From: an uncultured Litoreibacter sp.
GTDB taxonomy: Bacteria > Pseudomonadota > Alphaproteobacteria > Rhodobacterales > Rhodobacteraceae
Reading direction: 5' to 3'
Assembly (NCBI GenBank): GCA_947501685.1
Contig: CANMWQ010000001.1
Location: 620,001 to 684,000 of the forward strand
Length of the DNA: 64,000 nucleotides
Shown here in pieces: positions 10,410-14,545 of this stretch. The number at the start of each line of letters is the position of its first letter. Position 1 is the first letter of the stretch. Both the position numbers and the translations under genes were made by a program. The notes under the pieces are model-generated. The model was not told the origin of the DNA. It searched no databases and worked only from the letters and a program-made list of their open reading frames with translations.

Positions 10410-12809
10410 ATGAGCCAATCAGATGATTTCGACGCCTTCGAGGCCGCTTCCTCCGTCCCGCTGTCACAGCGCGCTTTTGGGGCGGCTGTGGCCTCCCGCG
10501 CGGCCCCGTATCTTGAGGGTCTGAACCCCGCGCAACGCGCCGCCGTGGAAACGCTGGACGGCCCCGTATTGATGCTGGCCGGCGCAGGCACCGGTAAAAC
10601 CCGCGCGTTGACGGCGCGGATCGCGCATTTGCTGACCACCGGGTCTGCGCGGCCCAATGAAATTCTGGCGGTGACCTTTACCAACAAAGCCGCCCGCGAG
10701 ATGAAAAACCGCGTCGGCAAATTGCTGGGCGAGCAGGTGGAGGGCGTGCCGTGGCTGGGCACGTTCCACTCCATCTGCGTGAAGCTCTTGCGCCGTCATG
10801 CCGAACTGGTGGGGCTGAAATCGAACTTCACCATTCTGGACACGGACGACCAGCTGCGGCTTTTGAAGCAATTGATCGCCGCCGAGGGCATTGACGACAA
10901 GCGCTGGCCCGCGCGGCAATTGGCCGGGCTGATTGACCAGTGGAAGAACCGCGCCTGGACGCCGCAAGCGCTGCCCGCCTCAGAGCATGGGGCCTATAAC
11001 AACCGGGGCGGCGAGTTTTACGACGCCTACCAGCAACGGCTGAAAACCCTGAACGCCGTCGATTTTGGCGACTTGCTGCTGCACATGGTGACGATCTTTC
11101 AAAATCACGACGACGTGCTGAAACAGTATCAGCGCTGGTTCAAGTACATCCTTGTGGACGAGTACCAAGATACCAACGTCGCGCAATATATGTGGCTGCG
11201 GCTTTTGGCCGCCGGGCACCGCAATATTTGCTGTGTGGGTGATGATGATCAGTCGATTTATGGCTGGCGTGGCGCAGAGGTGGGCAACATTTTGCGCTTC
11301 GAATCCGACTTTGAGGGCGCCAAAATTGTCAAATTGGAACAAAACTACCGTTCAACGGAGCATATTCTGGCCGCCGCCGCTGGCGTGATCGCGGCCAACA
11401 AAGGGCGGCTTGGAAAGACGCTGTTTACCGAAAGCGAGGGCGGCGAAAAGGTGCGTCTCATCGGCCATTGGGACGGTGACGAGGAGGCCCGCTGGATCGG
11501 CGACGAGATTGAGGCCATGCAGAGCGGCACGCGCGGAATGGGGCCAAAATCGCTCAACGACATGGCCATTCTGGTCCGCGCCTCGCATCAGATGCGCGCC
11601 TTTGAGGATCGCTTTCTGACCATTGGTCTGCCCTACCGCGTCATCGGCGGGCCGCGCTTTTATGAGCGGCTCGAAATTCGCGACGCCATGGCCTATTTCC
11701 GCCTCGCCGTCAGCCCTGAGGATGATCTGGCGTTCGAGCGGATCGTCAACACGCCCAAACGCGGGCTGGGAGACAAGGCGCAGCAAAAAATTCAGGTCTC
11801 TGCACGGGCCAACGGGGTCTCCTTGCATGAGGGTGCGCGGCTGCTTCTGATGTCAAACGGGCTCGGCGGCAAGGGCGCGGTTGAGCTGCAAAAGCTGGTC
11901 GATGGCATTGATCGGTGGTCCGCACAGGTGCGCGGGGAGGCGGACACCCATATCGAGCTGGCGGAGATGATGCTGGAGGAGTCCGGCTATACCGAGATGT
12001 GGCAAAACGACAAAACCCCCGACGCGCCGGGGCGGCTGGACAACCTCAAAGAGCTGATCAAGGCCCTTGAAGGCTTTGAAAACCTGCAAGGTTTTCTGGA
12101 GCATATCAGCCTTGTCATGGACAATGACACAGAAGCCGCGGGGGAGCAGGTCTCTATCATGACCTTGCACGGGGCCAAGGGGCTGGAATTTCCCGCCGTG
12201 TTCCTGCCGGGCTGGGAGGACGGGCTGTTCCCCTCGCAACGCTCCATGGATGAAAGCGGGCTGAAGGGCCTCGAGGAGGAACGCAGGCTCGCCTATGTCG
12301 GCATCACGCGGGCCGAAGAGGTTTGCACGATTTCTTTTGCAGGCAACCGCAGGGTCTACGGCCAATGGCAGTCGCAACTGCCTTCGCGCTTTATTGACGA
12401 GCTGCCAGAGGCGCATGTGGAAATTCTCACGCCGCCGGGGCTTTATGGCCATCAGGGCGGGATGATGGCGCAGGCCAGCCCTGATTTGCAGGCCCTGTCG
12501 GAGAGCGATTTGCACGACAAGGCGGCCTCGGCCAACGTCTATAACTCCCCCGGCTGGCGGCGCTTGCAGGAGCGTCAGGGTCAACGTGGCATGGGCCAGC
12601 CGCGTGAAAGCAAGAACATGGTGATCGACGCGCAGGCGGTCTCCAGCTTCACCACCGGGGAGCGGGTGTTTCACCAGAAATTCGGCTATGGCACGGTGGA
12701 TGCCATCGAAGGCGACAAGCTGGACATCGCCTTTGACAAAGCTGGCACCAAGAAGGTGGTTGGCAAGTTTCTGGTCGCCGCAGACAGCGCGGGGGATGTG
12801 CCGTTTTGA
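10410..12809 (+). CDS. ATP-dependent DNA helicase, UvrD/PcrA family
   Basis: LNPAQRAAVETLDGPVLMLAGAGTGKT, DEYQDTN, GDDDQSIYGWRGA, QNYRST, TLHGAKGLEF motifs; ORF 5' extension to 9504 rejected. Confidence 0.93.
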   Translation: MSQSDDFDAFEAASSVPLSQRAFGAAVASRAAPYLEGLNPAQRAAVETLDGPVLMLAGAGTGKTRALTARIAHLLTTGSARPNEILAVTFTNKAAREMKNRVGKLLGEQVEGVPWLGTFHSICVKLLRRHAELVGLKSNFTILDTDDQLRLLKQLIAAEGIDDKRWPARQLAGLIDQWKNRAWTPQALPASEHGAYNNRGGEFYDAYQQRLKTLNAVDFGDLLLHMVTIFQNHDDVLKQYQRWFKYILVDEYQDTNVAQYMWLRLLAAGHRNICCVGDDDQSIYGWRGAEVGNILRFESDFEGAKIVKLEQNYRSTEHILAAAAGVIAANKGRLGKTLFTESEGGEKVRLIGHWDGDEEARWIGDEIEAMQSGTRGMGPKSLNDMAILVRASHQMRAFEDRFLTIGLPYRVIGGPRFYERLEIRDAMAYFRLAVSPEDDLAFERIVNTPKRGLGDKAQQKIQVSARANGVSLHEGARLLLMSNGLGGKGAVELQKLVDGIDRWSAQVRGEADTHIELAEMMLEESGYTEMWQNDKTPDAPGRLDNLKELIKALEGFENLQGFLEHISLVMDNDTEAAGEQVSIMTLHGAKGLEFPAVFLPGWEDGLFPSQRSMDESGLKGLEEERRLAYVGITRAEEVCTISFAGNRRVYGQWQSQLPSRFIDELPEAHVEILTPPGLYGHQGGMMAQASPDLQALSESDLHDKAASANVYNSPGWRRLQERQGQRGMGQPRESKNMVIDAQAVSSFTTGERVFHQKFGYGTVDAIEGDKLDIAFDKAGTKKVVGKFLVAADSAGDVPF

Positions 12810-13842: not shown

Positions 13843-13924
13843 ACACGCAACCCTAGGCCGCATGAGCCGCATCTAAATTGCGTTCTTGCGCGCGCCTGTC
13901 AAAAAATTGCAACTTGGCGGCGTC

Positions 13925-14368
13925 ATGGATCAGATAAACGAAAAAATATTGCAAGAACTGTCGCGCGACGGGCGGCTCAGCAACCTTGAGCTGTCGGAGC
14001 GCGTCGGCCTGTCGCCCTCCGCCTGTTTGCGGCGCGTGCAGGAACTGGAGCGGCGCGGGGTCATCAAAGGCTACCGCGCGGTGCTGGACCGCGACAAAAT
14101 GGGCGCGGGCTTTGTGGCCTATATCGCGGTGGGGCTGTCGGATCATTCCAAGGCCAGCCAGGAGGCGTTCGAGCGCTCCATCGGGCGGGCCAGCGAGGTG
14201 CGCGAATGCCATAACATCACCGGAACCGTGGAATATATGCTGCGCGTCGAATGCGCAGACTTGCCCAGCTATAAGCATTTTCACACTGAAATTCTGGGCG
14301 TCCTGCCACAGGTCAGCGCGATCACCAGCTATATTGTAATGGGGTCTCCCAAGGACGAGCGGGCGTAG
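13925..14368 (+). CDS. Lrp/AsnC family transcriptional regulator
   Basis: MDQINEKILQELSRDGRLSNLELSERVGLSPSACLRRVQELERRGVIKGY. Confidence 0.92.
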   Translation: MDQINEKILQELSRDGRLSNLELSERVGLSPSACLRRVQELERRGVIKGYRAVLDRDKMGAGFVAYIAVGLSDHSKASQEAFERSIGRASEVRECHNITGTVEYMLRVECADLPSYKHFHTEILGVLPQVSAITSYIVMGSPKDERA

Positions 14369-14372
14369 GGGC

Positions 14373-14458
14373 GAAAAAAAACGGTGACACCGGGAGGAGG
14401 TGCCACCGTCTCTTATCAGTACGGTCCATCCACAAGGGAGGAGGAGGGTTGGACCGTA
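14373..14458 (-). ncRNA. Cuckoo/CcsR-like sRNA: two hairpins with CCUCCUCCC-type loops, the second a terminator with U8
   Basis: Minus strand: stem TACGGTCCA/TGGACCGTA (420-428/450-458) with loop containing CCCUCCUCCUCCC; stem CGGTGnCACC/GGTGnCACCG (382-391/399-408) with UCCUCCC loop, followed by U8. Confidence 0.75.
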
Positions 14459-14459
14459 G

Positions 14460-14545
14460 GGTGCGACGCGCTCTGGGAGGAGGATGAGCGTGCCGCGATA
14501 TTGCGCCGGGCCATCAATCGGGAGGAAATCGGGCCGGGCGCAAAT
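14460..14545 (-). ncRNA. Second candidate cuckoo/CcsR-like hairpin pair, proximal to DUF1127 gene
   Basis: Minus strand: hairpin 503-512/532-541 (9/10 paired) with UUUCCUCCC loop; hairpin CGCTC/GAGCG (469-473/486-490) with CAUCCUCCUCCCA loop. Confidence 0.6.

Follow-up and report, generated by a model that had tools for sequence, protein, structure and literature searches.

Predicted PhaR operators at the promoter of a DUF1127-cuckoo sRNA operon in a Litoreibacter genome

A cuckoo-type array behind a DUF1127 gene

In Rhodobacter sphaeroides, ccaF1 and CcsR1-4 form a DUF1127-sRNA operon with an RpoHI/RpoHII promoter, the RNA of which is processed by RNase E together with CcaF1 (PMC10253847, PMC8307010); the CIN1 locus has been described as well (PMC10253847). 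NfeR1 of Sinorhizobium meliloti is an ar14 RNA in which anti-Shine-Dalgarno (aSD) loops pair at translation starts and silence the mRNAs (PMC10746234). It is a separate sRNA of three hairpins; their stems vary, their loops carry CCUCCUCCC, and the last one serves as terminator. Its promoter is of the sigma70 type, and an NtrC site is present.

The locus described here lies in a window of 64,000 nucleotides (the whole stretch of Litoreibacter DNA that was analyzed) and resembles both systems. Four minus-strand hairpins stand directly 3′ of the stop codon of a DUF1127 gene of the CcaF1 type, in the same orientation, and the last is followed by U8 in the manner of an intrinsic terminator (Table 1), which bears out the earlier note's reading of a cuckoo/CcsR-like aSD array made from the letters alone. 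That note had also seen more divergent loops in the proximal pair. This holds for hairpin 1, to which the reduced motif UCCUCCC is confined, but not for hairpin 2, the loop of which already carries the full CCUCCUCCC. In all, the array has three full CCUCCUCCC motifs and one UCCUCCC; in hairpin 4, the first two C of CCUCCUCCC sit in the stem. The array folds with a predicted energy of −84 kcal/mol, compared to −53.4 ± 4.1 for shuffled sequences (z = −7.5). All three exact copies of CCTCCTCCC in the window fall within one 92-nt stretch of the array, with 0.62 expected per window. A loose hairpin finder that accepted any CCUCC loop was unspecific, giving 67 matches at −8 kcal/mol or below on the two strands, and the motif was tightened.

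Table 1. Features of the DUF1127-cuckoo operon, with positions in the window
Feature	Position	Strand	Basis or remark
Palindrome CATGCA-N5-TGCATA enclosing the LysR-type box	14895-14879	minus	sequence
LysR-type (LsrB/VtlR-like) box TGCA-N6-GCAT, TGCAATTGCTGCAT	14893-14880	minus	exact T-N11-A form
Predicted PhaR operator 1, TGCTGCATAGCAGCA (CTGC-N3-GCAG)	14887-14873	minus	exact 15-mer; conserved in genus and family
−35 region ATTGCG (CTTGTT in relatives)	14858-14853	minus	in relatives, TTG fixed 12 nt from the operator 1 block
Predicted PhaR-like operator 2, TGCGGCAGCGCAGCA	14856-14842	minus	between −35 and −10; 1 mismatch to TGCTGCN3GCAGCA
−10 region CCTACAT, RpoH-like	14837-14831	minus	family consensus CcTAnnT
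DUF1127 gene, 68 aa, CcaF1-like	14755-14549	minus	PF06568, 44.5 bits, above cut-off
Hairpin 1	14546-14497	minus	loop UCCUCCC; close relatives keep GAUUUCCUCCCGAUUGAUG
Rfam RF02344 (ar14) match	14373-14502	minus	68.4 bits
Hairpin 2	14496-14463	minus	loop AUCCUCCUCCCA
Hairpin 3	14458-14420	minus	loop UCCUCCUCCCUU
Hairpin 4 + U8, intrinsic terminator	14414-14374 (hairpin to ~14376)	minus	loop UCCUCCC; stem covariation

The covariance-model search that the earlier note had called for gave a divided answer. The ar14 model (RF02344) matched over its full length (1-123; E = 2.4e-11) and above its gathering score of 58.8, whereas the CcsR1 model (RF02791) reached only 26.3 and 23.5 bits, below its cut-off of 65.3. 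The array is the sole ar14 locus in its own genome. It belongs to the known cuckoo/ar14/CcsR 'CIN1' locus, and its RNA part is not new. As in ccaF1-CcsR1-4 of R. sphaeroides, CCUCC-loop hairpins and a terminator stand downstream of a DUF1127 gene. An RpoH-type promoter is reported for that operon, and here the −10 is RpoH-like; R. sphaeroides has four CcsR units, each of two hairpins in the Rfam CcsR1 model, whereas there are four hairpins in total here, a comparison that rests on published descriptions and Rfam models. The TGCA-N6-GCAT LysR-type box is found upstream of both NfeR1 and this operon. Unlike in NfeR1, the four hairpins here are the 3′ UTR of a DUF1127 gene, behind a promoter with an RpoH-like −10 and PhaR-matching boxes.

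An ar14 match was found in 21/21 genomes of the genus and in 167/200 genomes of the family, and a DUF1127 frame ends close upstream of the array in 48 of 50 loci. The CCUCC loops are constant while the stems change, and they are kept in all 21 genus members. In the 11-bp terminator stem, pairs 5, 6, 7, 8, 9, and 11 each occur as at least two standard pair types among 12 sequences; a thirteenth, with a stem that starts ACGACAACGTC, is outside this count. Thus, the compensatory changes and the retained loops on which the earlier interpretation had staked itself are both present in relatives. The number of hairpins per array is 3 to 8 in the genus, most often 4, and ranges from 2 to 26 across 112 loci of the family. 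The proposal of a divergent copy-number variant therefore stands only in that hairpin number varies; 4 is the usual number in the genus, and we reject the idea that this array is a peculiar or specially divergent one. The locus itself is an ordinary further copy of a known sRNA operon, and the result at its promoter matters more.

The conserved promoter block and its predicted PhaR operators

Aligned upstream regions contain a strongly conserved block in 21/21 genus loci. The promoter consensus among 80 named relatives, ctATGCAnTTgCTGCATaGCAGCATTG-N11-ATTGTGCAnntGCAGCATnnnCcTAnnT, includes a LysR-type box, CTGC-N3-GCAG, a TTG/−10 pair with an RpoH-like −10, and a second PhaR-like box. For comparison, the RpoH1 −10 consensus of S. 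meliloti is CCTATAT (PMC8844928). The −35 (ATTGCG) is weak, and the sigma factor is therefore uncertain. The LysR-type box overlaps operator 1; TGCR-N6-GCAT is present in 68 of the 80 named relatives, and YATGCR-N5-YGCATR has one site only in the window, at this box. Operator 1 scores at least 15/18 in 91 of 112 loci, compared to a mean of 10.7 for shuffles.

A DNA pattern of the promoter only, with no RNA or protein information, gave at least 120 matches in public genomes, and 80 loci were examined. Their titles name Rhodobacteraceae, Rhodobacterales, or an unclassified alphaproteobacterial MAG. The left arm, which is outside the search pattern, reads CT before GC in 72 of the 80 loci listed. 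Downstream DNA of over 700 nt was available for 72 loci, and each of these has cuckoo hairpins, DUF1127, or both; at least two CCUCC hairpins were counted under a strict rule in 62, and a DUF1127 frame was present in 59. Eight loci lack strict-rule hairpins, and seven of these have sub-gathering CcsR1 or ar14 matches (E down to 1e-12), with a DUF1127 frame at the eighth. Since essentially every match checked leads to cuckoo hairpins or DUF1127, the promoter goes with the RNAs.

What might bind this block? One candidate is PhaR, a repressor of phasin genes that senses the carbon-storage compound PHB. The PhaR binding sequence of R. sphaeroides, determined experimentally, is CTGCNNNGCAG, with the form CTGC-N3-GCAG, and the PhaR boxes of phaP1 and phaP2 in S. 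meliloti flank the −35 (PMC12542648). At 14885-14875, CTGCATAGCAG is an exact match to the R. sphaeroides site. The exact 15-mer TGCTGCNNNGCAGCA occurs at only three places in the genome, namely at this promoter and in two copies between phaP and phaC. Of these two genes, phaC was identified by its PhaC match, and the phasin match of phaP is just under its cut-off; PhaR is encoded in the genome as well. The phaP promoter of the same genome reads box, CTTGAA, box, TATATAT, the layout found at the DUF1127-cuckoo promoter. PhaR-controlled phaP promoters likewise have two TGCTGC-N3-GCAGCA-type boxes around the −35, but the promoter here drives an operon for sRNA and an RNA-binding protein, and it has two further elements, an RpoH-like −10 and a LysR-type box that overlaps operator 1. 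The spacer of box 2 is 4 nt rather than 3 nt in most of the family, and box 2 is therefore not a canonical PhaR site.

There is a described parallel in S. meliloti, where the promoter of the sRNA MmgR binds PhaR at CAATTGTGCACCGCAGCATTA (PMC12542648), a site resembling the family version of box 2, ATTGTGCANNNGCAGCAT. MmgR itself is another sRNA; a single PhaR site is given for it, compared to the two predicted here, and no DUF1127 gene is mentioned. Targeting of phaP by the loops, which is possible for MmgR, found no support here; pairing at the phaP start region reached −10.7 kcal/mol, outside the ten best of the 105 reading frames of the window.

We consider it likely that this is a cuckoo-type (ar14/CcsR-like) sRNA operon repressed by PhaR through the two predicted operators, with a LysR-type regulator acting at the overlapping box. 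Both the binding of PhaR at the operon promoter and the direction of its action are what we infer from the matches above. Judged by sequence, the PhaR-matching operators appear to be a new control input, undescribed in the literature found. Our search of a literature collection with few subscription papers turned up no paper joining PhaR with CcsR, CcaF1, or cuckoo RNAs, such that a prior mention is possible.

Co-loss with PhaR and alternative explanations

The PhaR reading was formed after the conserved block had been seen, and genomes without PhaR provide a comparison. PhaR is absent from 9 of 398 family genomes, and seven of the nine keep a cuckoo array (the match in G124 is weak, E = 0.002). 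In these seven, a scan of 220 nt that tolerated one mismatch found no CTGC-N3-GCAG. With one rule applied to all loci, and with the PhaR-positive loci limited to those with DUF1127, box 1 was found in 71/75 PhaR-positive and 0/7 PhaR-less loci (Fisher p = 9e-8; 5e-6 when collapsed by genus) and box 2 in 74/75 and 0/7 (p = 2e-9; 2.5e-7 when collapsed). Both boxes are kept in 71 of the 75 PhaR-positive loci. The LysR-type box is found in 74/75 PhaR-positive and 6/7 PhaR-less loci (p = 0.16). A UvrD tree does not unite the PhaR-less genomes in a single clade (p-AU = 0.004). This single-gene tree implies about four losses of PhaR, only one pair of them on well-supported branches, and the co-loss test is thus suggestive but phylogenetically not tight.

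These counts bear on a reading that we regard as unlikely, namely that this is a plain RpoH-controlled cuckoo/CIN1 locus in which the block is the site of a LysR-type (LsrB/VtlR) activator and overlapping half-sites yield the PhaR-like palindrome as a by-product. LsrB activates the ar14 sRNA NfeR1 through a TGCA-N6-GCAT box (PMC10746234), and that exact box is present here. VtlR, with the Brucella motif CAATGCAGCCATGCA, is described as the primary regulator of DUF1127 proteins (PMC12595884), and TGCATRGCRGCATTG in the promoter consensus agrees with the reverse complement of that motif in 14 of 15 letters; a palindrome of this kind also precedes a second DUF1127 gene of the genome. However, a by-product of the LysR-type site is difficult to reconcile with the loss of the CTGC-N3-GCAG arms and box 2 from all PhaR-less array genomes while the LysR-type box stays, or with an exact 15-mer that the locus has in common only with phaP.

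It is more doubtful again that the operon is under some other, unnamed regulator that recognizes a CTGC-N3-GCAG-like site and disappeared from the same lineages as PhaR. Co-loss is only a correlation, drawn from few losses, and the PhaR-less genomes tend to be small, so that other regulators may be missing from them too. Against such a regulator, the 15-mer and the layout match the phaP promoter of the same genome, and the site itself has been defined experimentally for PhaR. Finally, the hairpins could be a mere complex terminator or 3′-end stabilizer of the DUF1127 mRNA with no regulation in trans, and the last one is an intrinsic terminator, but this is very improbable given that arrays of 2 to 26 hairpins keep their CCUCC loops while the stems change freely, that some arrays remain behind this promoter where DUF1127 is absent, and given the trans action of CcsR1-4 and NfeR1 (PMC8307010, PMC10746234).

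A possible regulatory circuit and related loci

Under the preferred reading of PhaR control, an RpoH-like promoter would give one transcript encoding the small CcaF1-like DUF1127 protein and carrying the four aSD hairpins in its 3′ UTR. In PHB-poor cells, PhaR would sit on the two operators around the −35 and hold the operon down, as it presumably does at the phaP promoter of the organism. When PHB accumulates, PhaR would move to the granules and release the operon, which an RpoH-type holoenzyme, together with an LsrB/VtlR-like LysR-type protein that is probably an activator, could then transcribe. By analogy with R. sphaeroides and S. meliloti, the 3′ UTR is presumably cut into one or two small RNAs by RNase E, with help from the DUF1127 protein. 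Through their CCUCC loops, these RNAs would base-pair with the Shine-Dalgarno sequences of their target mRNAs and so prevent translation.

We lean toward a wider version of this scheme for Rhodobacteraceae-type bacteria. The DUF1127-cuckoo operon would be a core member of the PhaR regulon, with one promoter merging RpoH-dependent heat and oxidative stress, an LsrB/VtlR-like signal, and carbon storage; the output would be 2 to 26 hairpins that mimic the ribosome tail, and the promoter would also drive arrays that have no DUF1127. If true, a broad aSD regulator of a large and ecologically important family would be tied to carbon storage via PhaR. Such a link would parallel S. meliloti, where MmgR is tied to PhaR and NfeR1 to LsrB, and would fit the published effects of the CcsR RNAs on C1 and central carbon metabolism.

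The neighborhood adds to the picture of the locus. A UvrD/PcrA gene (10410-12809) is close to the array here and no more than a few kb away from it in most of 30 family genomes, and the cuckoo locus therefore looks vertically inherited; UvrD/PcrA is also a useful syntenic anchor for locating diverged copies of the array. With hairpin number varying so widely at one syntenic locus, the family offers a natural series for aSD dosage effects. On the other side of the operon, a gene for an Mrp/NBP35-type ATPase (15105) is divergent from it. An Lrp/AsnC-type regulator gene (13886-14368, plus strand) is convergent, with some 5 nt between its stop and the point where the U-run ends; by their positions, the 3′ ends of the two transcripts would abut or overlap at 14366-14381.

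Within hairpin 1, GAUUUCCUCCCGAUUGAUG (14531-14513) is nearly invariant in close relatives, while the stems of the other hairpins vary. A distinct role for this segment, or a protein site, is possible.

The genome has three DUF1127 genes. About 40 nt downstream of the second (L031; G000:C1, 335233-335325, minus strand) stands one terminator hairpin, the loop of which is UCCUCCCU, and the palindrome TATGCG-N5-CGCATA lies about 105 nt upstream of the gene. This may be a relative of the cuckoo locus that has one hairpin only and is controlled by the same LysR-type regulator. The third (L033) has neither such a hairpin nor the palindrome.

At other loci, the conserved promoter directly precedes aSD hairpins at L123 and L142, where no DUF1127 frame was seen, and L160 has two copies of the promoter, one for a two-hairpin unit and, following that unit, a second for DUF1127. 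The longest arrays have 26 (L226, in genome G146), 23 (L155), 17 (L234 and L243), and 15 (L002) CCUCC-loop hairpins.
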